From Acidobacteriota bacterium (lineage in GTDB: Bacteria; Acidobacteriota; Vicinamibacteria; Vicinamibacterales; Fen-181): a stretch of 64,000 bases of DNA. Position 1 is the stretch's first letter; each line of letters begins with the position of its first letter. Under the pieces are notes generated by a model. The model had not been told where the DNA came from and searched no databases. It saw only the letters and a list, made by a program, of their open reading frames with translations. Positions 45,086 to 59,991 of this stretch are shown piece by piece. The position numbers and the translations under genes were made by a program. Location of the stretch: NCBI GenBank assembly GCA_003170135.1, contig PMZR01000068.1:1-64000 (forward strand). The letters are read 5' to 3'.

Positions 45086-45874
45086 TCACGCCTCCTGCAA
45101 ACGCCTGGCAATCGTCCGGACCGCCGGGTGCGCATTGGTCGGAATCCACACGCGCCAGTCGCGGACGTCGATCGGAACGATGGTGATGCGGCGGCCCGGG
45201 TCGGCCAGTTGCCGGTTGGATGCGACGGCCGCGGCGATTTCGCTCTGCGCGGCGACGTCGGCGGCGAGCACGAACACCGACACGTCCGCCTTCCGGACCG
45301 CGTTGGCGCGTACCGCCTGCGCCCAGACTTCGTGGACCGCCTCGCGATCGAGCCGCGAGACGAACTTGGCCAGCAGCCACGGCCGCGATCCCGCCCGGCC
45401 GAACCGGTGCGACTTCGCCAGGCAGCCGAGATCGAAGTCGGATGTCGCCATGCGCTCGCTCGCCGGAAACGCCTGGTCGAAGAGCTGCGCCATGCGACAA
45501 AGTGCCGCGCGCTTGACCAGCGCATCGCGCCCGTCGCGAACCGATTCAAACGAGGCCTCGCTTCTCTCGGCGGGCGGCGGCGTGGACGGAGGCGGCGCAG
45601 CGGGCTCGCTCGGAGCCGGCCGGTTTGGCCGGTCCGACTCGGGGTGTTCGGCGAGCAGCGATTGGTCGTACTCGGCGCGGCTGGCGGGATCGACCAGCGT
45701 CTTGTAGGCGGTGGTGAGATCGGCCGAACGGACCTGGGCCAGTTCCTGGAATTCGGCGCCGAGGTGCTGCACCTTGTCCGGGTGATAGCGCGCGATGATC
45801 TGGCGGAACGCCTGCCGGATCTCGGCAGCCGACGCGTCGGGCGCCACCTCGAGCAGCTCGTAGTGCGTCTTCAC
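45086..45874 (-). CDS. J-domain (DnaJ-like) protein linked to the pilus cluster
   Basis: Protein of 262 aa starting at GTG 45874, with GAGGGATC before it. The N-terminal J-domain (THYELLEVAPDASAAEIRQAFRQIIARYHPDKV) has the HPD triad at residues 31-33 that stimulates Hsp70. A Pro/Ser/Glu linker (about 85-115) leads to a C-terminal domain of about 150 aa with no recognised family (LCRMAQLFDQAFPASERMATSDFDLG…). It is the last gene of the pilus operon, 16 nt after the MshE-like ATPase gene, so it may help assemble or recycle that machine. The pairing with Hsp70 is inferred. Confidence 0.8.
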   Translation of the reverse strand: MKTHYELLEVAPDASAAEIRQAFRQIIARYHPDKVQHLGAEFQELAQVRSADLTTAYKTLVDPASRAEYDQSLLAEHPESDRPNRPAPSEPAAPPPSTPPPAERSEASFESVRDGRDALVKRAALCRMAQLFDQAFPASERMATSDFDLGCLAKSHRFGRAGSRPWLLAKFVSRLDREAVHEVWAQAVRANAVRKADVSVFVLAADVAAQSEIAAAVASNRQLADPGRRITIVPIDVRDWRVWIPTNAHPAVRTIARRLQEA

Positions 45875-45890
45875 GATCCCTCGATGGGCA

Positions 45891-47879
45891 TCAGGGGTTG
45901 GACTTCTTGAACTCGGCGATCTTGCCCGAGGGGAGCTGGTGCCTCCCGAGCTCGCGCTGCCTGCCCTTGCGCCTACCCGGTTGAGCATGCGACGCGCAGT
46001 AGGGGCAGTAGTTCCAGCCGGGCTGCAGTCCCCGGCCGCAGGTCGCGCACCCGCCGCCCAGCCGGCGGCCGCACTGCGGGCAGGCGATGAACTCCATGCC
46101 CACCGCGGCGCCGCACCCGGGACACAGCGTGCGTATCTCGCGCACCTCGGTAATGACCCGCAGGAGTTCGTCGGGCGTGGTCACGCCGGTCTTGACCTTC
46201 GCCAGGCCGTCCTCGCCGAGACTGATCATGCCGCCCTGTATCGCCGCATCCCGCACGGCGTCCTCGGGCGCCCGCTGGGCGATGAGCCGCCGCAGCTTCG
46301 ATCCGACGCGCATCACCTCGTAGAGCCCGACGCGGCCGCGATAGCCAGTGTAGTTGCACTGCTCGCAGCCGGCGGCGTGGTAGAAGGGGATGGCGGAAGC
46401 GTCGGCTTCGCTCATGTTCAGCGCGCGCAAGGTGTCGGCCGACGGCGTATACAGCTGCCGGCAGGCCGGGCAGAGCCGGCGCACCAGCCGCTGCGCGACA
46501 ATGCCGATCATGGCCGACGCGATCACGTACGGCTCGATCCCGATGTCCACCAGCCGCGTCACCGCCGATGGCGCGTCGTCGGTGTGCAGCGTCGAGAGGA
46601 CCAGGTGGCCCGTCTGCGACGCCTGCATCGCGATGCGGGCCGTCTCCTGGTCGCGGATCTCGCCGATGAGGATGACGTCGGGGTCCTGCCGCAGGATCGA
46701 GCGCAGCGAGCTCGCGAAGTTCAGGCGGATCTTCTCGTTGACCTGCGTCTGGTTGATGCCGGGCATCTGGTACTCGATCGGATCCTCGATCGTGACGATG
46801 TTGCTGCGTTCCGACTGGACGGTCTTCAGCGCCGCGGCGAGCGTCGTCGTCTTGCCGCTGCCGGTCGGCCCCACCACGAGGATCATGCCGTGCTGGTGCT
46901 TCAGGAAACGCCGCAGGTCCTCGAGCGACGCGGACGACAGGCCGAGTTCGTCGAGCGCCGGCACGCCCTTGCGGTGATCGAGGACGCGCAGGACGATCTT
47001 CTCGCCGAACAGCGTGCGCAACGTCGAGGCGCGGAAATCGACCTGGGTGTCCTCGTCGGTCGTCACGCGAATACGGCCGTCCTGCGGCAGCCGCTTCTCC
47101 GCGATGTCCATGCCCGACATGATCTTCAGCCGCGCGATCAGCCCTTCGTGGACCCACTTGGGCAGGTCCATCACTTCCTTGAGCAGGCCGTCCAGGCGCT
47201 GGCGCACCACCACGGTCTTCTCGAGCGGCTCGACGTGCACGTCGCTCGCCCGGCTGCGGATGGCGCTCTTCACGATCAGATCCACCAGGTCGACGATGGG
47301 CGCTGCTTCCCCGCCTTCCTTGGGCGCTTCCGCCGTGTCGAAGGCCGGCTCCTGCCGCATGAGGCCCGCAACCGGGCCATCCACTGCCTGGGCCGGACCA
47401 GCCGCCGCCGCGCGCGTCGACGCCGGGACCGACGAGGTGGAACGCACGATCGCGTTGTCGGGATAGTGCCGGTTGATCGCCTCGACGATCTCGGTCTGCG
47501 TCGCGATGACCTGCTTGATGCGGTACCCGGTCTTGAATTCGAGGTCCTGCACGAGGCTGAACAGCAGCGGGTCCGCCATCGCCAGCGTCAGCACGTTCTT
47601 CTCGAGCCCCACGGCGATGCAGACGCGCTTGAGCGCGATGTCCTTCGGGACGAGGACGACCGCCGCCTGGTCCGGCGGGTTGTCCGCGAGGTTCAGGTGC
47701 GGGAATCCAAGCTGGTAGGCCAGCGCCTTGGCGATCTGCTTCTCGGTGGTCAGCTTCATCCGGACGAGCACGGCGCCCAGGCGTTCGCCCGTGCGCTTGT
47801 GTTCGGCCAGCGCTTCCTGCAGTTCGTCTTCGGTGATCAGCCCCGCCTGGATCAGGCACTCGCCCAGTTTTTTCCGCAT
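45891..47879 (-). CDS. PilB/MshE-type assembly ATPase with c-di-GMP motif and C-terminal zinc ribbons
   Basis: Type IV pilus/type II secretion extension ATPase of 662 aa. Residues 4-27 and 33-56 are two copies of the 24-residue MshEN motif (KLGxxLIQAGLIT… and RLGAVLVRMKLTT…) with the canonical 5-residue spacer; in MshE this pair binds c-di-GMP. Deviations: Lys for Arg1 and His for Gln24 in copy 1, Lys for Gly10 in copy 2. The ATPase core has Walker A GPTGSGKTTT, Asp box, Walker B ILIGEIRDQETA and the His box. A zinc-binding CPACRQL…CEQCNYTG pair is within the core. Unusually, the C-terminus adds two more Cys4 ribbons (CPGCG…CPQCG, CATCG…CPYCAS). Confidence 0.92.
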   Translation of the reverse strand: MRKKLGECLIQAGLITEDELQEALAEHKRTGERLGAVLVRMKLTTEKQIAKALAYQLGFPHLNLADNPPDQAAVVLVPKDIALKRVCIAVGLEKNVLTLAMADPLLFSLVQDLEFKTGYRIKQVIATQTEIVEAINRHYPDNAIVRSTSSVPASTRAAAAGPAQAVDGPVAGLMRQEPAFDTAEAPKEGGEAAPIVDLVDLIVKSAIRSRASDVHVEPLEKTVVVRQRLDGLLKEVMDLPKWVHEGLIARLKIMSGMDIAEKRLPQDGRIRVTTDEDTQVDFRASTLRTLFGEKIVLRVLDHRKGVPALDELGLSSASLEDLRRFLKHQHGMILVVGPTGSGKTTTLAAALKTVQSERSNIVTIEDPIEYQMPGINQTQVNEKIRLNFASSLRSILRQDPDVILIGEIRDQETARIAMQASQTGHLVLSTLHTDDAPSAVTRLVDIGIEPYVIASAMIGIVAQRLVRRLCPACRQLYTPSADTLRALNMSEADASAIPFYHAAGCEQCNYTGYRGRVGLYEVMRVGSKLRRLIAQRAPEDAVRDAAIQGGMISLGEDGLAKVKTGVTTPDELLRVITEVREIRTLCPGCGAAVGMEFIACPQCGRRLGGGCATCGRGLQPGWNYCPYCASHAQPGRRKGRQRELGRHQLPSGKIAEFKKSNP

Positions 47880-47942
47880 CGTCGAACACCTTCCCGCCCG
47901 CGAGTTTCGTCCGGCGCGTCGCGCCCGCGATCGCACCGTCGC

Positions 47943-49352
<1,410 letters not shown>

Positions 49353-49370
49353 GCGTTCCGTTCTCGTACC

Positions 49371-50861
49371 TCAGTGCCTGCCAACCAACGTGGCGACGCC
49401 GTCCGCCGCCCACTCCGCCCGCAATGCGGCCCCGGAGGATTCCGCCGGCACCGGGTCCGCCGCGAGCGGCAGCCGGATCGTGAACGTCGTGCCGGCCTCC
49501 CGGTCGCTTTCGACGTCGATGCGGCCCCCGTGCGCGGTCACGATCTGCCGCGCGATGGCCAGGCCCAGACCCGTGCCCGCCGCCTTCGTCGTGTAGAAGG
49601 GCACGAAGAGTTCCTGCATCTGCTCCGGCCGAATGAAGGACCCCGTGTTGTGCACCCGCACCGTGGCGTCGGGGCCCGAGACCGTCGTCGAGACCGTCAC
49701 CGCGCCGCCTTGCGGCGTCGCCTGCACCGCGTTGGCCAGGACGTTGGTCAACGCCTGGCCGAGGCGGGCCGCGCTGCCCAGCGCGATCGGCGGCAGCGGC
49801 GAGTCCATCGTGGAGATCGTCACCGCCCGTCCGCCCAGGCCCAGGCGCGCGAACGTGACGGCGTCGCCGGCCACGCGGTTCAGATCGATCCGCTCCGACG
49901 AGGGGGCGCCTGGCGACGAATAGAGCAGCAGATCCTCGACGAGGCGGTCCAGCCGGCCGATCGCCTCGAGCATCGTCTGCACGTAGCGACGCCGCGGGTC
50001 GTCGTCCTGGAAGTCACGCCCGAGCAGTTCCGCGAGCCCCTGCAGCGAGGCCAGCGGATTGCGCAACTCGTGCGCGACGCCCGCCGTCAGCGTGCCGAGC
50101 GAGACCAGGTGGTCCGCCTGCTGCAGCCGCGCGCGCAGCCGCCGGATCTCGGTCAGGTCCTTGAACGCGATCATGACCCCGATCGTCGCCGTGTCGTCAA
50201 ACGCCCGGGGCCGCAGGTACGACACGGTGACGTCGATGCGCATCGGGCGCCCGTCTTTCGCCGCGACCACCACGTCGTCCATCGCGACGGGTTCGCGCCG
50301 GGCGATGGCGGCTTCCATCGCCGCCAGCGCGTGGCGGCTCGCGGCGGCCGGCGCGAAGATCGCGCTGAACCGCCGGCCCACCAGTTCGTCTTCGCGGTAC
50401 CCGAGCACGACTTCGGCGGCCGGACTCGACCCGATGATGACCCCGTCGGCGTTCACCGTGATGACGGCGCCCGTCATGGCCTGGAAGATGTACCGGCTCA
50501 CCGCTTCGACGGCGTCGTTGAACGCGCCCGCCACGCGGTCCACCTCGGAGGTCGACCTCAGATCGAGCGCGCCCCGCAGGTCACCCGACGCCATCGCCTC
50601 GAGCCGATCGAAGACCTGGCCCAACGGCGCCGCCACGCCCAGCGCAAGCGCGAACCCGAGCACGCCGGCGATCGCGGCGACCACCGCGATCTCGATGGCG
50701 AGGCCGCCGAGCGCCTGGTGCACCGCCGGACCGGTCAGGCCATACAGCAGGTAGGCGCGCGCCGTCATCTTCTGCACGAAGAAGCCGGTGGCCGCGACCA
50801 GCACACCCATGGTCGCGGGCAGCAGCACCAGCAGCTTCAGGCGTGTGACCCGGACATCCAC
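49371..50861 (-). CDS. membrane sensor histidine kinase of the pilus cluster
   Basis: Kinase of 496 aa. Two membrane helices (LLVLLPATMGVLVAATGFF and AIEIAVVAAIAGVLGFALALG) enclose a short external loop of about 30 residues. A HAMP-like linker (LGQVFDRLEAMASGDLRGALDLRSTSEVDRVAGAFNDAVEAV) follows, then a PAS domain (ITVNADGVIIGSSPAAEVVLG), HisKA (GVAHELRNPLASL) and HATPase (NVLANAVQATPQGG, GTGLGLAIARQI). The small external loop suggests sensing within the membrane or by a partner, as with PilS. It is paired with the next gene. Confidence 0.92.
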   Translation of the reverse strand: MDVRVTRLKLLVLLPATMGVLVAATGFFVQKMTARAYLLYGLTGPAVHQALGGLAIEIAVVAAIAGVLGFALALGVAAPLGQVFDRLEAMASGDLRGALDLRSTSEVDRVAGAFNDAVEAVSRYIFQAMTGAVITVNADGVIIGSSPAAEVVLGYREDELVGRRFSAIFAPAAASRHALAAMEAAIARREPVAMDDVVVAAKDGRPMRIDVTVSYLRPRAFDDTATIGVMIAFKDLTEIRRLRARLQQADHLVSLGTLTAGVAHELRNPLASLQGLAELLGRDFQDDDPRRRYVQTMLEAIGRLDRLVEDLLLYSSPGAPSSERIDLNRVAGDAVTFARLGLGGRAVTISTMDSPLPPIALGSAARLGQALTNVLANAVQATPQGGAVTVSTTVSGPDATVRVHNTGSFIRPEQMQELFVPFYTTKAAGTGLGLAIARQIVTAHGGRIDVESDREAGTTFTIRLPLAADPVPAESSGAALRAEWAADGVATLVGRH

Positions 50862-50862
50862 G

Positions 50863-51888
50863 TCACTTGCTCCTCGACTCGCCGCGGGCGCCTCCGCGCG
50901 CGCCGATCAGCGTCCGGCCGAGTTCCACGCGCCGCAGCAGGCCGGACGGCAAACGGATCACGACGGCACCCGGCTCGATGTCGGCGACCACACCCGACGC
51001 GACAAAATCCCCGACGCGCACGGTCCGGCGATCGACAACCGCGAGGCGCCGGTCCGCCGCGTACAGGATCGACGTGACGACCGGTTCGGGACCGGGAGCG
51101 GCCCGACCCCTGGCGACGGCCTGCACCGCCGCCTCGCGGCGTTCGCCCGCGACGAACGGATCGTGCGACCAGACCGGGACGTGGTCGAGGTCGATTGCCG
51201 GCGACGCGGTCGTGGAATCGGCCGCCATCCGCGAAGCAGCCGGGGACTCCGACAGAGACGACGAGGGCGCCGTGCGCGCGCGCGCCGGTTCCGGTGCCGC
51301 GCGGCGCCGCGCGTATACCAGCGTGAGCGTCGACGCCAAAAGCGAACGTGAGCGCGCGATCTCGAGCGAGCGCACTTCGACCGGCGCCGGCAGATCCCGC
51401 AATCTCCACAGAAACAGGCCGAGCCGATCGTAGGTGGTCTCGAACCGCACCACGATCGGCGTCGATGCCCCCGCCGCCTGCGACCCTTGCGTGTCGCGCG
51501 CGGCGGGCCCGCGAGCTGCGCCGGTGGCGCCGGACCCTGTGTCCGGGATCGTCGTGATCTGCAGGCCGCGCACCTGCGCCGGACCGCCGAGACTGGCGGC
51601 CAGCCGCGCCAGGTGCTCGATCACGACGGAGACATCGGCCTGGCTCGATTCGACCCGCTCGGACTGCGCGACCGCGCGGCCGTTCGCCGATCCGGTGGCC
51701 ACCGAGCGCAGCTGGCGGCGCATGCTTACGACCCGCTCCTCGAGCGAAGCGGCCGCCCGCCGCGCCTCGAGCGTCCGCGCCACGTGCGGCCACACGAATA
51801 CCAGCGAGCCCGTGACGAACACGGCCGCCGCCAGCGCGAGCGGCAGACCACGCCTGGCACCTTCCGGCACACGCCCCGCCCAAGTCAT
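50863..51888 (-). CDS. PilO-PilP (MshJ-MshK-like) fusion protein
   Basis: Inner-membrane protein of 341 aa. One N-terminal helix (ALAAAVFVTGSLVFVWP), a coiled coil (ARTLEARRAAASLEERVVSMRRQLRS) and a ferredoxin-like PilO half (IVVRFETTYDRLGLFLWRLRDLPAPVEVRSLEI). After a Ser/Ala/Pro linker (about 220-265) comes a PilP/MshK-like beta domain (VTSILYAADRRLAVVDRRTVRVGDFVASGVVADIEPGAVVIRLPSGLLRRVEL), the part that contacts the secretin. In known systems these are two genes. The ATG overlaps the stop of the PilM-PilN gene. Confidence 0.7.
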   Translation of the reverse strand: MTWAGRVPEGARRGLPLALAAAVFVTGSLVFVWPHVARTLEARRAAASLEERVVSMRRQLRSVATGSANGRAVAQSERVESSQADVSVVIEHLARLAASLGGPAQVRGLQITTIPDTGSGATGAARGPAARDTQGSQAAGASTPIVVRFETTYDRLGLFLWRLRDLPAPVEVRSLEIARSRSLLASTLTLVYARRRAAPEPARARTAPSSSLSESPAASRMAADSTTASPAIDLDHVPVWSHDPFVAGERREAAVQAVARGRAAPGPEPVVTSILYAADRRLAVVDRRTVRVGDFVASGVVADIEPGAVVIRLPSGLLRRVELGRTLIGARGGARGESRSK

Positions 51889-53273
51889 CGCCGCACCTCG
51901 TAGACGACGCCGAAGTGCAGCAGCGCCGAGCGGGACTCGGCAGCGGCCGAGGCAATCGAGATTGACGGGCCGTCGAGCGGCGGGCCGATGAGCGGCGAGG
52001 CCGCGACGAGCCGCAGGAAGTCGTTGAACGTCGTCTGCGCATCGGCAGGCGTCGAGGCGCTGGCCTTGCCCGCGATCGCCAGTCGCCACCGGTCACCCTG
52101 TGAGACGAAGCGCGCCGATTCCAGCTCGACGCCACGAGGCGCGCTGCGGCCGAACACTTCGAGAACCCGCGCGAGGCGCGGGCCGTGCACCGCCGCCGAC
52201 GCCAGCGCCGACGCGCGCGCCGCATCGATCGATCGTCCCAGGCCCGCCCGTTCCGCGTCGCGGACCTGCGGCTCGAGAACGGCGATCTCGTGTCGAAGCG
52301 GGGCCATCCCGGCGTCGACGCGACTCTCCCACCCGCGCGCCAGCCCGTACGCACCGGCCACCAGCACGCACCCGGCGGCCATGGCGGCGATCGATCGCCG
52401 TGCGAGATGGGTCGCGGCACGGCGGGCCACCAGGTCGAGTGGCAGCACGTTCGCGGCGGACGCGTGATCGGTCCCAGCCGCCCACGCGACGCGCAACTCG
52501 CTGGCGCGGCCGAGCACGGTGGCATCGGGCACGGTCGCCGCGCGTGGTGCCAGGCCTTCCACTGAATCGAGCGTCTCGACCTCGACGTCCAGGATGTGGA
52601 CGAGCGGCGAGGTGAGCGCGCGCGGGGACGGGAACTCGCCGCAGACATACACGCGCTCGACCCGTTCCGAGGTCTGCTGCGTGAACTGCAGGAACGCGCG
52701 CTTCAACTCGGCGCCGAGGCGGATGGCGAACTCGCCGCGACTGGACCGGGCGGCGGGCTCGCCGGCGGCCGGATCGAGAACGGCGCTGCCGGCGACGATC
52801 GGGAACTCCCGCGCGGCGAGCAACACGCCATCGCGCACGATGGCCAGGGCCGTCGCGTCGGCGTTGACCGCCAGGTAGGCCTGGACCCCGTCACCGGCAT
52901 GCGGGTGCAACAGGCGCGACATCGCGGCGAGCGCATCCGGCACCGTCATGGCCCGCTCGATCGCAAACCCGGCGGCGATGAGCGGCGCCAGCCGCAACCG
53001 CACCTCCCCGTCCGCCTCGTGGCCCGGCGTCCGGGTGAGCACGTGGCTCGCGCCCGCCACGCCCCAGAGGGCGACGGCCGCACTGGTGGACACGACCCTC
53101 GACGTCCGGAGGATGCGCAGCGTCGCGACGAACGCCGCGGTGTTCTCCAGACTCCACGGGATGGTCCGGAACCCCCGGATGCGCGCGCCACGGCGCGAGC
53201 GGTCCGCTGGCACGTCGAGATCGACGATTGCGCACCGGAACGGCGACAGCTCGATTCCCACCCGGACGGCCAT
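51885..53273 (-). CDS. PilM-PilN-like fusion protein
   Basis: Protein of 462 aa from ATG 53273. The first ~270 residues resemble a divergent actin-like PilM/MshI domain (VGIELSPFRCAIVDLDV; later EFAIRLGAELKRAFLQF and VERVYVCGEF), with a weak nucleotide-binding signature. After NVLPLDLVARR, the typical PilN start, a membrane helix (SIAAMAAGCVLVAGAYGLA) and a coiled coil (ESRVDAGMAPLRHEIAVLEPQVRDAE) lead into a ferredoxin-like PilN domain. In most species PilM and PilN are separate proteins that bind each other, so the fusion fits their contact. Its leader of 172 nt holds three hairpins. Confidence 0.68.
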   Translation of the reverse strand: MAVRVGIELSPFRCAIVDLDVPADRSRRGARIRGFRTIPWSLENTAAFVATLRILRTSRVVSTSAAVALWGVAGASHVLTRTPGHEADGEVRLRLAPLIAAGFAIERAMTVPDALAAMSRLLHPHAGDGVQAYLAVNADATALAIVRDGVLLAAREFPIVAGSAVLDPAAGEPAARSSRGEFAIRLGAELKRAFLQFTQQTSERVERVYVCGEFPSPRALTSPLVHILDVEVETLDSVEGLAPRAATVPDATVLGRASELRVAWAAGTDHASAANVLPLDLVARRAATHLARRSIAAMAAGCVLVAGAYGLARGWESRVDAGMAPLRHEIAVLEPQVRDAERAGLGRSIDAARASALASAAVHGPRLARVLEVFGRSAPRGVELESARFVSQGDRWRLAIAGKASASTPADAQTTFNDFLRLVAASPLIGPPLDGPSISIASAAAESRSALLHFGVVYEVRR

Positions 53274-53289
53274 GCGAGTCCTTGATTGA

Positions 53290-53364
53290 CCGGCGAGCCG
53301 GCTCCTGCCAGAAAGGGGCACACTGCGCCCCACAGTCCTCTACGGGATTTCGGCTCGAAACCCC
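53290..53364 (-). other. structured leader of the PilM-PilN gene
   Basis: Three hairpins are visible: GGGGTTTCG/CGAAATCCC with loop AGC (53364-53344, 9 bp including one G-T pair), GGGGC/GCCCC with a 7-nt loop (53331-53315), and CCGG/CCGG with a CTCG loop (53301-53290). They lie 17-91 nt before the PilM-PilN ATG. No known riboswitch class was matched. Confidence 0.4.
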
Positions 53365-53445
53365 ATTTGCGGTAGGTCGGGCGTACGGCTGGCGCACGCG
53401 GACGTCTCAGGCGCAGACGCGCGGAACTGGTTGGATTGAAAGCGT

Positions 53446-54084
53446 TTAGCGGATTCGACAGCCGATATCGTCGCCGCCCGGACGGGCGGACGCGACAGGT
53501 TGTGTGAAGGGCGTCTCTATCGTCCCGTTTGGCCCGGCCGAGATGACAAAGAGCGCCTCCTCGCCGTCTCCGGGCCCCGCGGCGCCGATATTGACCATAT
53601 AGCGGTTGTTCCACGGATCGGTGGCGACCACCGATGCCAGATACGGCCCGTTCCAGCCGGCCGCCGCGGTCGATTCCCGGCGCGGATAGCCGGGCGCGTT
53701 GGTGACCAGGTGATCGGCCAGCGGGCTGGTGGACGCCTCGCCCGACAAAATCAGCCATCCCTGCAGAGCGCCATCGCTGGTATCGCCTGCGGGGGTTCTG
53801 CCGGGACCGACGAGCAGCGTCAGGTGTTCCGGTGTCGGGCTGCTGGTGGCCGGGTGGATGGGCGCCCTCCGGGGAAAGACGCCGGTGTCGTGGTGGAAGC
53901 GGACGATTGCGCGGGCGATGGCGGCGCAGTCGCTATGCGCCCTGGCGATCCGGGAGTCGTTGACGACGTCCGCGATCGAGGGCGTGAGGACGAGCATGAG
54001 CGTCACGGCGGCGGCACAGGCGACGGTCACCTCGATGAGGGTGACGCGCCGGGACCGGGCCGGGACTCCTGACCTCGGGCGCAT
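53446..54084 (-). CDS. type IV pilin-like (GspG/H-like) pseudopilin
   Basis: Protein of 212 aa. A basic N-terminus (MRPRSGVPARSRR) is followed by VTLIEVTVACAAAVTLMLVLTPS, the N-methylation helix with Glu at the fifth position. The residue before the expected cleavage site is Arg13, not the nearly invariant Gly. A C-terminal globular part has WNGPYLASVVATDPWNNRYMVNIG, typical of major pseudopilin GspG, where the Asp-rich loop binds calcium. It starts the pilus operon. The ATG at 54084 sits 13 nt after a sigma-54-type -12 element, so either a leaderless transcript or a different start is implied. Confidence 0.82.
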   Translation of the reverse strand: MRPRSGVPARSRRVTLIEVTVACAAAVTLMLVLTPSIADVVNDSRIARAHSDCAAIARAIVRFHHDTGVFPRRAPIHPATSSPTPEHLTLLVGPGRTPAGDTSDGALQGWLILSGEASTSPLADHLVTNAPGYPRRESTAAAGWNGPYLASVVATDPWNNRYMVNIGAAGPGDGEEALFVISAGPNGTIETPFTQPVASARPGGDDIGCRIR

Positions 54085-54096
54085 GGTACCCTTTCC

Positions 54097-54112
54097 AGCA
54101 ACCGGAGTGCCG
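54097..54112 (-). promoter_or_regulatory. sigma-54 promoter candidate of the pilus operon
   Basis: The minus strand reads CGGCACT-CCGG-TTGCT, close to TGGCACG-N4-TTGCW: GGCAC and TTGCT are exact and GG-N10-GC spacing holds. It predicts transcription start at about 54086, two nucleotides before the pseudopilin ATG. Confidence 0.55.
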
Positions 54113-54268
54113 CGCGGGCGCGTGGCGTCGAATGCGTGGAAATGCGCAATTTTTCGCGCGCGTGCCGGGCGGCGGGCTGGAGGAGGGCGACCGCCATCGT
54201 CGCCTGGCGCGAACGGCGCAACAAACCGTGTTGGGCGGAAGCGGCCGGGCGCCGGGTGGAATCGGTCC

Positions 54269-54297
54269 TTGCGAAAACGCGAGCCGGCCTGTAGTCT
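54269..54297 (+). promoter_or_regulatory. promoter of the GGDEF-HTH gene
   Basis: -35 TTGCGA (54269-54274), a 17-nt spacer and -10 TAGTCT (54292-54297). It predicts a leader of about 54 nt. It diverges from the sigma-54 element of the pseudopilin gene in the same 273-bp gap. Confidence 0.55.
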
Positions 54298-54357
54298 GCC
54301 GCGAGTCTTGCCGACACCCGTTAGTGAGTTCGTCGTGAATCGTCTCGCGTCCGCCCC

Positions 54358-55503
54358 ATGAACCATCAACGCTGGTTTGCGGAAGACCTCCGACAACGCG
54401 CCGCCAGCGCGATCCGCGACCGGCGAGACACGCTGGCCGCGGACCTGGACGTGCTGGTCGCCGCCGCGCTGCCCGAGCCGCCGGCCGGCGATCTGCGCGC
54501 GCGCCTGGTCACACGTGTGCTCGAACTGCTGGCTGTGGCGATTGCCGACGGCGGCGTCGTCGAAACGCCGCGGCTGCTGGAGGTGGCGGCGTTCGAAGAG
54601 ACCGGCGCGAGGCTGCCCGATCTGTTCGCGGCGGTGCGGCTGGCCGAGCGCGCGACGTTGCAGGAACTGTCCTCCGATGGGCAGGTCGGGGCACCGACCG
54701 AGCACTGGCCGGCCGTCACGGAGCTGGTCCGCAAGGCGTCGTTCGACTTGCTGGCGGCCGTTTGCACGCGCCGCGCGATGGACGCCTCGCGCGGCGTCAT
54801 CGATCCGATCACCACGCTGACCTCGCGCGCCGTGTTCGACATGGCGGTCGCCAAGGAACTGCAGCGGACCATTCGGTATCGTCATCCGCTCGCGCTCATC
54901 CTCTTCGACGTCGACAACCTGGCGGCCATCAACGACAGGCACGGGTACGGCGTCGGCGACCTGGTCCTCGAGCGGCTGGGCGTCTTCATGCGCCAGTTCT
55001 TCCGGCAGCCGGACTGGGTGGGCCGGTACGGCGGCGATTCGATGGCCGTGCTGCTGCCCGAAACGACCTCGCGCGACGCGCAGACGCTGGCCGAGGGTGC
55101 GCGGCGGGCAGTCGAAGAGCGCCTGGTGTTCCCCGACAAGCAGGAGCGGCCGGTGGGCGTCACCGTCAGCGCGGCGGTGGTGGCCGTCACGCTGCGCGGC
55201 CGGTCGGGCGAAGGGCGCGAGGCGATCGACACGGTCCGGGTGATGACCGAGGCCGAGGCCGGCGTGAAGCGCGCCCATGCGCGTGGCGGCAACACGATCG
55301 AGCGCATCGAGGTCGCGCGCGAGTCGCTGTCGGTCGGCGAAGCGGCGGCTTATCTGCGCTGCTCCGCCGGGACAATCCGCAAGCTCATCGCCACCGGAAC
55401 GCTCCCCGCACTCGATGCGAGCGGGCACACGCGCCTCGATCGCGGGGCGCTCGAGGCGTATGGGCGCCGGCATCCCAGACCCGCCAGAAAGGCCGCCCGC
55501 TAG
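54358..55503 (+). CDS. degenerate GGDEF domain fused to an excisionase-type helix-turn-helix domain
   Basis: Protein of 381 aa with three parts. Residues 1-140 are helical and unrecognised. Residues ~145-315 are a GGDEF domain: the first metal region FDVDNLAAIND (D184) is intact, but the active-site loop is GGDSM (225-229), so the catalytic Glu is replaced. The inhibitory c-di-GMP site RQPD (216-219) is present five residues before the loop, as in PleD. Residues ~322-371 are an HTH_17 domain (LSVGEAAAYLRCSAGTIRKLIATGTLPALD). I infer a c-di-GMP-binding transcription regulator that has lost synthase activity. It is divergent from the pilus operon. Confidence 0.85.
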   Translation: MNHQRWFAEDLRQRAASAIRDRRDTLAADLDVLVAAALPEPPAGDLRARLVTRVLELLAVAIADGGVVETPRLLEVAAFEETGARLPDLFAAVRLAERATLQELSSDGQVGAPTEHWPAVTELVRKASFDLLAAVCTRRAMDASRGVIDPITTLTSRAVFDMAVAKELQRTIRYRHPLALILFDVDNLAAINDRHGYGVGDLVLERLGVFMRQFFRQPDWVGRYGGDSMAVLLPETTSRDAQTLAEGARRAVEERLVFPDKQERPVGVTVSAAVVAVTLRGRSGEGREAIDTVRVMTEAEAGVKRAHARGGNTIERIEVARESLSVGEAAAYLRCSAGTIRKLIATGTLPALDASGHTRLDRGALEAYGRRHPRPARKAAR

Positions 55504-55786: not shown

Positions 55787-56863
55787 TTACTGTTGGATGA
55801 TGCGCTGGCGGAGAATGTCGCAGCGGCGCCGGACCTCGGCGATTCGCGTCGCTTCATCGGCGCCGGCGAGGGTCAGGTACCGCTGGTAGTAGTCGAGCGC
55901 GCGGGCCGATTCGCCCGCCGCCTCGTAGAGCGACGCGAGGTTGTAATCGGCGGCGGCGCTGCGCGGATCGATCGAGATGGCCCTGATCAGCGTTTCCTGT
56001 GCCTGTGACGGGCGTCCGGCCGCGCGTTGCGCAATCGCGAGGTTCACCAGGGCGCCGCCGTTGCGCGCGTCTGCGGCAACCACCGCCTCGAAGTCGGCAA
56101 TCGCTCCGCTCACGTTGCCTGCCTGCAGCAGGGCCACGCCGCGATTGTTGCGCGCCCGGGCATAGCCAGGATCGAGCCGGATCGCCTCGCTGAACTCCTG
56201 GATCGCCTCGTCCACAGATCCCCGGCCCTGATAGAGCAGCCCCAGGTTGTTGTGCACCTCCACCGGCATCTGGTTCTCTTTGAGCACCAGCCGGTACTGC
56301 GCGAGGGCGTTGTCGAAATCCCCGCTGCGCTGGTAGCGCAGCGCGCGTTGGAAGTGCTCCTCGGAGGTCGCCGGGTCCGTGCCGTCCGGCGTCTGCGACG
56401 GTCGCGCCCCGGTGACGATGGTCGGACCGGCCGCTTCAGGCGGGACGGCCGCGCCGATGACGGTGCGTGGTCGGGGCGTCGGCCTCGATTCGCTTGAAGG
56501 GTCGGGCACGGGCGCACGCGGACTCGGTTCGAGCGAGCCACCCTGCTCACTTCCCGGTGCCACCGCGGAGTTGTCCTTCGCCCGCGGTTGCGACGCGAGG
56601 GCCGCGTCCTGGCGCGGTAGCTGCAAAGCGCTCGCCTGCGTCACTTCGCGGCCAGGTCCGCGTGACGCGGGCGCGACATGCCGGTCGTACAGGATGCCGA
56701 TGCCGGCAAGGATGACCAGCCCCGTGAAGAGCAGCGGCTGCCACGTCCGCTTGCGCGCGCGCCCGGACAACGTTTCGAGCACGACGGTCGCATCGCCCGT
56801 CTCGGTCGGGACCCGGGGCGCGTCGCGCCGCTCGGGGCGCAGCCTCTCGAGGATCCGGCTCAC
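55787..56863 (-). CDS. membrane-anchored TPR protein, MshN-like
   Basis: Protein of 358 aa. A basic cytoplasmic N-terminus, one membrane helix (WQPLLFTGLVILAGIGILY), a disordered Pro/Arg/Ser linker to about residue 170, then five TPR units (EEHFQRALRYQRSGDFDNALAQYRLVLKEN; VEVHNNLGLLYQGRGSVDEAIQEFSEAIRLDP; and three more). In MSHA clusters the TPR protein MshN follows the ExeA-like MshM, as here. TPR domains would bind partner proteins outside the cytoplasmic membrane. The gene begins 3 nt after the ExeA-like stop. Confidence 0.8.
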   Translation of the reverse strand: MSRILERLRPERRDAPRVPTETGDATVVLETLSGRARKRTWQPLLFTGLVILAGIGILYDRHVAPASRGPGREVTQASALQLPRQDAALASQPRAKDNSAVAPGSEQGGSLEPSPRAPVPDPSSESRPTPRPRTVIGAAVPPEAAGPTIVTGARPSQTPDGTDPATSEEHFQRALRYQRSGDFDNALAQYRLVLKENQMPVEVHNNLGLLYQGRGSVDEAIQEFSEAIRLDPGYARARNNRGVALLQAGNVSGAIADFEAVVAADARNGGALVNLAIAQRAAGRPSQAQETLIRAISIDPRSAAADYNLASLYEAAGESARALDYYQRYLTLAGADEATRIAEVRRRCDILRQRIIQQ

Positions 56864-56866
56864 GGG

Positions 56867-57763
56867 TCATCCCCCCAGCCGCGGCAGGGTCAGCCGGCGG
56901 CGCAACCATCCGAGCGCCGAGGTGCCGGACGGCTGCAGATCGAGCGTCTCGACCGCCTTCGACACCATGGCCCGATTGACCTGGCCGGAATGCGCGGCGA
57001 AGGCGCCGAACAGCGACCTGTCGCAAATCAGGTTCACGAGGCGGGGGATGCCGCCCGAGTACTTGTGGATCTGGTCGATCGCGTTCGGCAGAAAGGTGAT
57101 CGAGCTGGAGGCGCCCGCCACGCTCAGCCGGTGGCCGATGTAGGCGCCCGTCTCGGGGCGCGAGAGCGGCTTGAGCTCGTAGCGAATCGAGATGCGCTGA
57201 TCCAGTTGCCGCAACTCGGGTGTCCGCAGCAGGGCCTGCAGCTCCAGCTGCCCCACCAGCAGGATCTGCAGCAGCTTCTCCTTGTCCGTTTCGAGGTTCG
57301 AGAGGATCCGCAATTGTTCGAGGACCTTGAGCGGCAGGTTCTGCGCCTCGTCGATGATGAGCACCGCGCTGCTGCCGAGCGGCAGCAGGCTCAGCAGGAA
57401 GTCGTAGAGCGTGTCGATCAGTTCCTGCTTGCTGACGCCGTTGAGTCGTCCCCCTTTCATCTGGTCGCGCGACACGATGCCGAAGTCCTGCAGGACGAGC
57501 TTCAGCAGGTCCTCTTCCGAGAGGAACGGGTTGAGCACGAGCGCCGTGAACGTGTTGCGGTCGATCGTCTCCAGCAGCGCGCGGCACAACGTCGTCTTGC
57601 CGGTGCCGATGTCGCCCGTGATCGCGATGAAGCCTTCGCGCCGCCGGATCGCGTACTGAAGCAGCTCGAACGCGCTGGCGTGCGACTGGCTCCGAAAGAG
57701 ATACTTCGGGTCCGGCGTCAGGCTGAAGGGTTTTTCGACCAGTCCAAAATAATCTTCGTACAT
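56867..57763 (-). CDS. ExeA/MshM-type AAA ATPase
   Basis: AAA ATPase of 298 aa beginning MYEDYFGLVEKPFSLTPDPKYLFRS, the hallmark N-terminus of ExeA/MshM proteins. Walker A GDIGTGKTT, Walker B VLIIDEAQNL, sensor GQLELQ and arginine finger region QRISIRYELKPLSR are intact. ExeA helps place its secretin by acting with a peptidoglycan-binding partner; MshM is its pilus relative. It lacks the peptidoglycan-binding extension. It lies 25 nt after the secretin gene and 3 nt before the TPR gene. Confidence 0.9.
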   Translation of the reverse strand: MYEDYFGLVEKPFSLTPDPKYLFRSQSHASAFELLQYAIRRREGFIAITGDIGTGKTTLCRALLETIDRNTFTALVLNPFLSEEDLLKLVLQDFGIVSRDQMKGGRLNGVSKQELIDTLYDFLLSLLPLGSSAVLIIDEAQNLPLKVLEQLRILSNLETDKEKLLQILLVGQLELQALLRTPELRQLDQRISIRYELKPLSRPETGAYIGHRLSVAGASSSITFLPNAIDQIHKYSGGIPRLVNLICDRSLFGAFAAHSGQVNRAMVSKAVETLDLQPSGTSALGWLRRRLTLPRLGG

Positions 57764-57788
57764 GGCTGCTTCGGTGATGCTCGCCCTT

Positions 57789-59339
57789 CTACCATGCCGC
57801 CGGCGGCGGCGTCTCACGCGGGCGTGCCGGCTCGCGCGCCGCGTCTGCGGCGATCGCGGCCGGCGCGACGATGGTCGGCGTCAGCAGGATCACGAGCTCC
57901 GTCCTGCGCGTCGATCGCGACTCCCGGCGAAACAGCCCGCCGACGACCGGCAGGTGGCCGAGGACCGGGGCCTTCGACGTCTCGCGCGTGACCCGCTCCT
58001 GCAGCAGGCCGCCGATGAGAACCGTCTCGCCCTCGCGCACGCGCACCAGCGTGTCGGTTTCCCGCGCCGAGAGAATCGGCACGGTGTCGCCCAGACGCGA
58101 CCTCGCCTGGCCCGTTCGTTCGGTGACGCGCGGCGAGATGCTCATGGTGATGATGCCGTCGCCGCCAACCTGCGGCGTCACGCTCAGCACCATGCCTTCC
58201 TCGATCGGATGGGGCGACACACTCGTCTGCAGCACGCGCCCGGTCGCCGCCTCGTGCTGCGACGTCGTGACGAAGTACACGTCCTGGGTGCCGACGCGCA
58301 CGATCATCGGCTCGTTGTTCATCGCCGCCACGCGCGGGCTCGACAGCACGTGCACGTCCCCTTCGGTCGCCAGGGCCTCGAGCAGCGCGGTGAAATCGCG
58401 GATGGTCACGCCCGCCGCAAAGGGCTGGGCGGGCGAGGCCGGCGACTGGGGCAGCGACACGCCATCGCCTGCGCGGCGCAGCACGGCGCTCCAGTCGACG
58501 CCCGCCGCGGCGCCCTCGTTCAGATCGATCTCGAGCACCTTCGCCTGGATCTGGATCTGGCGGTTCACCCGCAGCTGCACGAGATCGAGATAGAGTCCGA
58601 TCCTGTCCAGCCGATCGGGATAATCACTCACCTGGACGAGCCCCGCCTTCCGATCGAGGTTGTACCTCGCGTCGGGCGACACGAGCGTCTGGATGCCCTT
58701 CTCGACCTCGCCGAACAGGTCCGTCGAGTCGAACGACGTGACCGACACCCCGCTTCCGGTCGAGGCCAGGCCGCCGCCCGGGAACCCTTCGCCGGCCGCC
58801 GCGGGGGTCGCCCCTGCGGGCGCGCTGCCCGAACCGGCACTGCCGACCGCCGTCGACACGCCGATCGTCCGGGTCGCTTGTCGCCTCGTGGCCACGTAAT
58901 TGAGGTTGAACACGCGGGTGGCCATCTTGCGCCGCGACACGTGAAGGATGTTGTTCTCGACCGCGTAGTCGATATTGAGCGGTTGGAGCGCGGCGTCGAG
59001 CGCCTGCGCCAGGGTGACGTTCTTCAGGTCTCCGGTGAACGTGCCCTCCACGTCCGGATCGAGCACGAGGCTGAGACTGGTGTCCTGGACCACGAGCAGC
59101 AGCAGGTCCTTGATGGAGACGGGTTCCGAGGAGCTGAAGGAAAAGACCTGCCCCAGCCTGTCGCCCTTCAGGCGCTCCTCGAGTTGCATCACGGGAAGCG
59201 GCGGCAGTGGCGGTGGAGCCTGCGTCCGAGGCGGCACCGGCGGGGCCTGCTGCCGGCGGTCGGCCTGCGCCGGCACCGGTGTCACGCCGAGCACCGCGAT
59301 GAGGAGCGCAGCGCCGATCGTGCCCCGCCACGTCGTCAT
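57789..59339 (-). CDS. MshL/PilQ-type outer-membrane secretin
   Basis: Protein of 516 aa from ATG 59339, with a signal peptide (GAALLIAVLGVTPVPAQA). The STN/secretin N0 domain is SIKDLLLLVVQDTSLSLVLDPDVEGTFTGDLKNVTLAQALDAAL. A Gly/Ser/Ala-rich segment (about 180-215) precedes the N1-like domain. The C-terminal secretin domain includes VLSSPRVAAMNNEPMIVRVGT, VLSVTPQV and the closing GLLQERVTRETSKAPVLGHLPVVGGLFRR…ELVILLTPTIV. It forms the outer-membrane ring through which the fibre or substrate passes. It leads the secretin, ExeA-like and TPR trio. Confidence 0.92.
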   Translation of the reverse strand: MTTWRGTIGAALLIAVLGVTPVPAQADRRQQAPPVPPRTQAPPPLPPLPVMQLEERLKGDRLGQVFSFSSSEPVSIKDLLLLVVQDTSLSLVLDPDVEGTFTGDLKNVTLAQALDAALQPLNIDYAVENNILHVSRRKMATRVFNLNYVATRRQATRTIGVSTAVGSAGSGSAPAGATPAAAGEGFPGGGLASTGSGVSVTSFDSTDLFGEVEKGIQTLVSPDARYNLDRKAGLVQVSDYPDRLDRIGLYLDLVQLRVNRQIQIQAKVLEIDLNEGAAAGVDWSAVLRRAGDGVSLPQSPASPAQPFAAGVTIRDFTALLEALATEGDVHVLSSPRVAAMNNEPMIVRVGTQDVYFVTTSQHEAATGRVLQTSVSPHPIEEGMVLSVTPQVGGDGIITMSISPRVTERTGQARSRLGDTVPILSARETDTLVRVREGETVLIGGLLQERVTRETSKAPVLGHLPVVGGLFRRESRSTRRTELVILLTPTIVAPAAIAADAAREPARPRETPPPAAW

Positions 59340-59432
59340 CGATTGGCCTCGTCCGGGCGCACCTGTGGACACGGGTCCGTCCCTCTGGTGGGTTTTCGGT
59401 GGATGGCGGCGGGAACGATAGGGCCGGGGGCC

Positions 59433-59494
59433 TTGGTCGTTGGTCAGTTTGTCGTTCGTCGCTGGTGTGGGGTCCGCCGGGGGACCAGCGACGG
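59433..59494. repeat. heptanucleotide array with inverted arm after the small membrane-protein gene
   Basis: Left units TTGGTCG, TTGGTCA, (one-nt insert) TTTGTCG, TTCGTCG, CTGGTGT lie at 59433-59468. The arm GACCAGCGACGG (59483-59494) is the reverse complement of CGTCGCTGGTG. It ends next to the stop of the membrane-protein gene. Confidence 0.65.
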
Positions 59495-59496
59495 AC

Positions 59497-59991
59497 TCAG
59501 TTCTGAGGCGGCGGCGGCGCGACCGCCGGCTTGCCGCGGCTGAAGATCGCGGCGCCGAGCATGCCGCCGATCGTCGCAAAGATGGCGCCGATGACGAGCA
59601 TGAGGATGAAGCCGGCAATCATGCCGATGAGCAGGCCGCCGTTCATGCCGCCCTGCTCCATCAGACCGCGCAACGAGTCGGGCATGTCGCGCGCGTTTTC
59701 CGCAAACCGCTGCCAGAGCCGCATCTGCAGCGGCCCGGTCATCAGCCGGATCGGGACGCTCACGATCGCATCGACGACCGCGCCGATGAGGCCGGCCATG
59801 AGCCCGCCGAGGGCGCCGTCACCGACGGTGATCGCCAGCGGCGACGCGTTCTGCATCAGGTAGGCGGCGATGACCCCGCCGCCGATCACCCAGAGGCAGC
59901 AGCAGTTGCCGAACCAGACGATCGGCAGCGCCGAGAGGACCCCGATAAACAACCCGCCGACCAGCGCGGGCTGCAGGTGCTTGGACGGCAT
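59497..59991 (-). CDS. small glycine-rich membrane protein
   Basis: Protein of 164 aa with four hydrophobic segments: LVGGLFIGVLSALPIVWFG, CCCLWVIGGGVIAAYLM, LGGLMAGLIGAVVDAIV, and MIAGFILMLVIGAIFATIGGMLGAAIF. The CCCLW run and many Gly pairs suit tight helix packing. The C-terminus is Pro-rich. No family is recognised. The start is ATG 59991; an upstream ATG at 60096 lies within a heptamer array. Both ends of this gene are bordered by heptamer arrays. Confidence 0.75.
   Translation of the reverse strand: MPSKHLQPALVGGLFIGVLSALPIVWFGNCCCLWVIGGGVIAAYLMQNASPLAITVGDGALGGLMAGLIGAVVDAIVSVPIRLMTGPLQMRLWQRFAENARDMPDSLRGLMEQGGMNGGLLIGMIAGFILMLVIGAIFATIGGMLGAAIFSRGKPAVAPPPPQN

Follow-up and report, generated by a model that had tools for sequence, protein, structure and literature searches.

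The window (the whole stretch of DNA analyzed here, 64,000 nucleotides long) contains a gene for a degenerate GGDEF protein with a C-terminal helix-turn-helix (HTH), lying back to back with a pilus gene cluster (Table 1). In agreement with the original prediction, the gene is divergent from a pilus operon, here a pilin-like gene at the head of a run comprising pilN, pilO, histidine kinase, ntrC, and pilB genes.

Table 1 Features of the degenerate GGDEF gene and its surroundings in the window.
Feature	Positions	Strand	Remarks
Degenerate GGDEF-HTH_17 gene, 381 aa	54358..55503	+	ATG at 54358, stop at 55503; homologues in 45/162 genomes of the order
N-terminal region, residues 1-145, predicted all-helical, no known family	54358..54792	+	Low-confidence model for the helices
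Degenerate GGDEF domain, residues 148-314	54799..55299	+	PF00990, E 1.2e-27
RQPD, PleD-type I-site motif RxxD, residues 216-219	55003..55014	+	R and D invariant, 40/40
GGDSM, degenerate active-site motif, residues 225-229	55030..55044	+	Letter 4 never E in 40 homologues
HTH_17/excisionase-type helix-turn-helix, residues 324-368	55327..55461	+	PF12728, E 7.4e-9; in 14/40 homologues
Promoter-like element CTACCG-N16-CCGAAA, upstream of pilN	53348..53375	-	Sole exact match in the 5.8-Mb genome
Divergent intergenic region, proposed target	54085..54357	.	No sigma-70 site
Pilin-like gene (T2SSG), divergent from the GGDEF gene	53446..54084	-	Start codon at 54084
pilM/pilN-like gene	51885..53333	-	No Pfam match; sequence reading and synteny with relatives
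pilB-type ATPase gene (MshEN, T2SSE, double zinc ribbon), conserved partner of the GGDEF gene	45891..47936	-	
DnaJ-domain gene downstream of pilB, in the conserved block	45086..45988	-	
TPR protein, ExeA/MshM-type AAA ATPase, and secretin genes, other flank of the GGDEF gene	55787..59618	-	In part of the relatives

Pfam assigns the window protein two domains, GGDEF (at residues 148-282) and HTH_17, and these are more than chance matches. The HTH_17 match reaches 36.2 bits against a curated cut-off of 27, and the same segment matches the excise family TIGR01764 (E 2.8e-9), bearing out the excisionase-type C-terminus that had been proposed. An EAL domain of the kind found in the FimX family is absent from the window protein, nor did GGDEF_2 (PF17853) or a PucR-type HTH (PF13556) appear there at E<=10, with a weak GGDEF_2 match present in 4/40 homologues. 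Residues 1-145 of the window protein gave no Pfam match and no PDB relative by profile, and their predicted helices come from a structure model of this single protein that is unusable at a pLDDT of 42. Across the family, this N-terminal region includes a conserved stretch, DELxLDxxxGATxEPWP. A single-sequence query of the genome contigs returned only generic GGDEF and HTH matches.

Most homologues within the order are near full-length, with 36-48% identity. We also ran profile searches against 193 genomes of the class and a 396-genome sample of the phylum, scoring the best few candidates in each genome. No additional member carrying the N-terminal region or the HTH turned up; since only those best few were scored, rare members outside the order could be missed. 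Of seven genomes in the window's own taxonomic family, one has the gene, and the remaining six are also without a pilB of this type. The window copy forms the longest branch of the family tree.

An alignment of 40 members, on which all family counts of residues and of the HTH are based, indicates that the catalytic site has degenerated throughout. The original prediction was that GGDSM in place of GGDEF makes synthase activity doubtful, and this holds well beyond the window protein: the GG(D/E)EF of active cyclases is found in none of the 40, the glycines are mostly replaced (the position of G226 is E in 30/40), and the equivalent of PleD K332 is never K, being A in the window protein and S, A, T, E, G, or N in the family. 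The third letter of the motif is D in 39/40. RQPD and GGDSM are exactly five residues apart, as had been noted, and R216 and D219 are the invariant residues of RxxD. Also kept in 40/40 are D184, D186, N192, and D201, which align with PleD D327, D329, N335, and D344; D327, N335, and D344 belong to what we take to be the guanine pocket. The equivalent of PleD R390 (the Arg of the secondary I-site) is R in 32/40 and G247 in the window protein. Among the seven other GGDEF sites that could be read in this genome, five have RxxD, so its presence in one protein is weak evidence; the evidence for an I-site lies instead in the 40/40 conservation of RxxD across a family with a dead active site. The family is, judging by these residues, a dead cyclase that keeps a c-di-GMP I-site. 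With the R390 equivalent missing and the longest branch in the tree, the window copy may bind c-di-GMP more weakly than its relatives.

The link between this gene and the pilus is real and extremely conserved. The GGDEF gene is divergent from a pilB-dnaJ-ABC block in 40/40 homologue loci with context (a few short contigs show just part of the block), and the same holds in later-fetched loci carrying both genes. In genomes of the f12 group pilB directly adjoins the GGDEF gene, and elsewhere pilN and other genes lie between them; pilN and the TPR, ExeA, and secretin genes are found in just some homologue loci. Across the 162 genomes of the order, both pilB and the GGDEF gene are present in 43, pilB alone in 7, the GGDEF gene alone in 2, and neither in 110 (Fisher p 2e-29, for genomes that are not phylogenetically independent). 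Most exceptions involve contig edges or broken genes: in five of the seven pilB-only genomes the contig stops shortly after pilB, one GGDEF-only genome has a contig that begins at the gene, and pilB is frame-split in the other, so that G098 and G103 are the only real-looking losses of the GGDEF gene. In these two genomes, an acetyl-CoA synthetase gene occupies the place of the GGDEF gene beside the pilB block (L125 6103-8067 in G098, L123 5686-7464 in G103). Taken at the level of alignment and gene order, our data show a synthase site that appears dead family-wide, an invariant RxxD, and a gene locked to pilB in divergent orientation.

The pilus motor itself had been credited with a c-di-GMP motif, a claim that the sequences weaken. 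The window PilB has an MshEN domain (E 7e-19) in addition to T2SSE. Work on MshE implicated Arg9 and Gln32 in c-di-GMP binding (PMC5013675), and this pair of motif I residues is absent from the neighboring PilB. Among PilB sequences of the order, the Arg9 position is K in 38, M in 7, and R in 1 (45/46 K or M, with K in the window), the Gln32 position is H in 46/47, and the Gly47 position is mostly N. The replacement of Arg9 and Gln32 makes c-di-GMP binding by this motif doubtful, though His may still serve for Gln32. It is tempting to infer that sensing passed from MshEN to the GGDEF protein.

In contrast to RxxD and the pilB linkage, the HTH_17 tail varies across relatives. The 26/40 homologues without it occupy the same divergent position and stop just after GGDEF. 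We considered whether the HTH persists as a separate downstream gene in these genomes and rejected this, having found no HTH ORF or fragment in the next 1.5 kb downstream. On the family tree, whose root is not fixed, HTH presence and absence need at least four changes; if the root is placed between the group of f2, f4, and f8 and all other members, the simplest history is an HTH present in the ancestor and lost four times, and gain may also account for the pattern. The HTH is basic in f2, f4, f8, and the window (12 K/R vs 5 D/E) and charge-neutral in genus g47, and a GRHxRxDR wing is conserved in most HTH-bearing members. Mean pairwise identity among diverse members is 42% for the HTH, between the 33% of the N-terminal region and the 51% of GGDEF. 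Since the HTH is found in only 14/40 members and is neutral in g47, DNA binding through it cannot be a family-wide function: the putative DNA-binding tail is an optional extra, absent from most relatives.

The intergenic region between the divergent genes had been put forward as an obvious target, and here the data point elsewhere. Within 54085-54357 we found no sigma-70 site, palindromes of just 9 nt, and no block common with HTH-bearing relatives. The conserved DNA lies instead upstream of pilN in the window, and in relatives the pil-operon strand carries CTACCG-N16-CCG(A/C)A-type DNA before the operon, in many cases with GG or GGG 7-8 nt further on. This element scores 11-12 of 12 letters within ~330 nt of the GGDEF start in 19/40 loci (vs 0.04% of shuffled windows) and in no locus on the opposite strand. 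At 10 or more of 12 letters it is present in 7/14 HTH-bearing and 21/26 HTH-less loci; because loci of both kinds have it, it is not the site bound by the HTH, and no HTH-specific DNA site was found at the loci. With its spacing of 16, the element looks like a promoter. A genome-wide regulon was considered and rejected, and the element looks locus-specific, since it has no apparent excess over a reversed control pattern across the 162 genomes. Its form (CTACCG-N16-CCGAAA-N7-GGG, with CCGATA in two loci) resembles sigma-28-type promoters, a reading we offer only as a suggestion. Searches of six homologue loci for known RNA elements and families found none. Candidate repeats rich in TGCGCA/TGCAC lie at 54127-54160, including the palindrome AAATGCGCAATTT, and recur in several relatives, both HTH-bearing and HTH-less.

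Several characterized systems share parts of this arrangement. CdgA (Bd3125) of Bdellovibrio bacteriovorus carries GVNEF at its degenerate site, preceded by RxxD at a distance of five residues; it lacks cyclase activity, binds c-di-GMP with an affinity of ~2 uM (PMC3271064), and serves at the invasive pole as a receptor for c-di-GMP (PMC3271064, PMC3983030). By sequence the window family is alike in its seemingly inactive site and in an RxxD at the same distance; CdgA differs in its degenerate letters and in having no HTH, and adjacency to pilB is established for the window family. PopA of Caulobacter has the same combination of a dead active site and RxxD as receptor site (PMC12564702), but is a response-regulator protein with a cell-cycle output and no HTH. 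FimX, whose GGDEF is also dead, acts on PilB (PMC5595344); its site has degenerated to GDSIF, and it is stimulated by GTP (PMC8846402), but it binds c-di-GMP via EAL and has PAS and receiver domains. MabR, of the PucR/CdaR family, resembles the window protein in layout, with a helical N-terminus, an inactive GGDEF fold, and a C-terminal HTH (PMC11617747), yet these are GGDEF_2 and PucR-type HTH domains, and MabR has neither A-site nor I-site left (HGTWL, RHGR), whereas RxxD is invariant here. Coupling of a c-di-GMP protein to HTH transcription output is known from PdeL (HTH-EAL) and DgcM-MlrA (PMC12564702), which differ in having EAL instead of GGDEF or in being two separate proteins. No description of a protein joining GGDEF to an excisionase-type HTH was found in the searched literature (which misses many subscription journals), in line with the original prediction, whose reader knew of no characterized protein with this architecture.

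The family-level finding is real and well supported, and its best reading is a CdgA/PopA-type c-di-GMP receptor dedicated to the pilus; some lineages, that of the window among them, would add DNA binding as an optional output. We assign a probability of roughly 0.58 to the reading that the family is an I-site c-di-GMP receptor, with a catalytically dead GGDEF, that passes its signal to the adjoining PilB-driven pilus. Because the likely signal-binding motif is kept in the order and a pilus motor gene lies beside the gene, a protein of the window type probably reads c-di-GMP for the pilus. As in CdgA and PopA, c-di-GMP binding at RxxD would shift the conformation or the oligomeric state of the protein, which, so altered, would change pilus extension, most simply via PilB or its assembly, standing in for an MshEN domain that appears to have lost key binding residues. 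In the window lineage and several others, the HTH probably binds DNA and would add a transcriptional output, at its own promoter or at the pil genes; this arm would be dispensable, whether ancestral with several losses or gained several times.

Several observations weigh against the receptor reading: the window copy has G at the Arg390 position and forms the longest branch, a regulator and the operon it targets also typically show conserved divergent orientation, the invariant guanine pocket residues fit a GTP sensor, and the His at the Gln32 position of MshEN may still serve. The second of these bears on the c-di-GMP-responsive transcription factor originally predicted, in which the HTH would bind the intergenic region and control the pilus operon, itself, or both. 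The dead synthase with a kept I-site and the pilus link survive from that prediction; transcription as the defining function is not supported. An HTH above its curated cut-off, its basic charge in the window, f2, f4, and f8, its intermediate conservation, and a gene order that is always kept speak for such a role, but the 26 HTH-less homologues with no separate HTH ORF nearby, the repeated changes on the tree, the neutral HTH of g47, and a pil element that does not track the HTH argue otherwise. Transcriptional control is possible for the window member, though rather unlikely as its main function, and it is not the role that the family conserves. We regard as doubtful a scenario merging the two, in which a c-di-GMP transcription factor of the one-component kind, built from a helical domain, a dead GGDEF whose I-site is live, and HTH_17, would have taken over c-di-GMP sensing from MshEN within this order and repeatedly shed its HTH to become a purely protein-level motor regulator. 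That HTH_17 is a protein-interaction or vestigial module that does not bind DNA in any member would fit its absence from most members and its neutral charge in g47, but is unlikely given the good HTH_17 and excise scores of the window protein and the wing conserved in most HTH-bearing members.

The nature of the input invites other proposals. The degenerate site could bind GTP without turnover, so that GTP rather than c-di-GMP would be the input, as in FimX. The 40/40 conservation of the D327, N335, and D344 equivalents, the D at letter 3, and the closeness of FimX GDSIF to the family's (E/G)DS(I/M) are consistent with this idea; we nonetheless consider it quite improbable, as it leaves the invariant R216 of RxxD unexplained and the fold itself may require the pocket residues. 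Another proposal is a cyclase that is still active but unusual, making c-di-GMP or some other product; unusual GGDEF chemistries have been reported (PMC10667535), and a GGDQF domain is reported to convert 2',3'-cGMP. Loss of letter 4 and of the K332 equivalent in 40/40 members, together with the mostly replaced glycines, makes such an activity hardly credible here. The receptor reading makes the family a test case for how a dead enzyme may become a dedicated receptor, with its catalytic letters gone, RxxD in every homologue, and the motor's c-di-GMP site apparently eroded. Because the family has natural versions with and without the HTH, protein-level and transcription outputs are separable by comparing relatives.

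The pilus cluster has further features of its own. In the PilB-type ATPase, T2SSE is followed by a double zinc ribbon at the C-terminus. The gene immediately after pilB encodes a DnaJ-domain protein in almost every homologue locus. The window's cluster also includes a histidine kinase and an NtrC-type regulator (47943-50861, minus strand), a pair that recurs among the fetched loci only in G026 (L046 2854-5727), where it lies beside a second, 38%-identical PilB.
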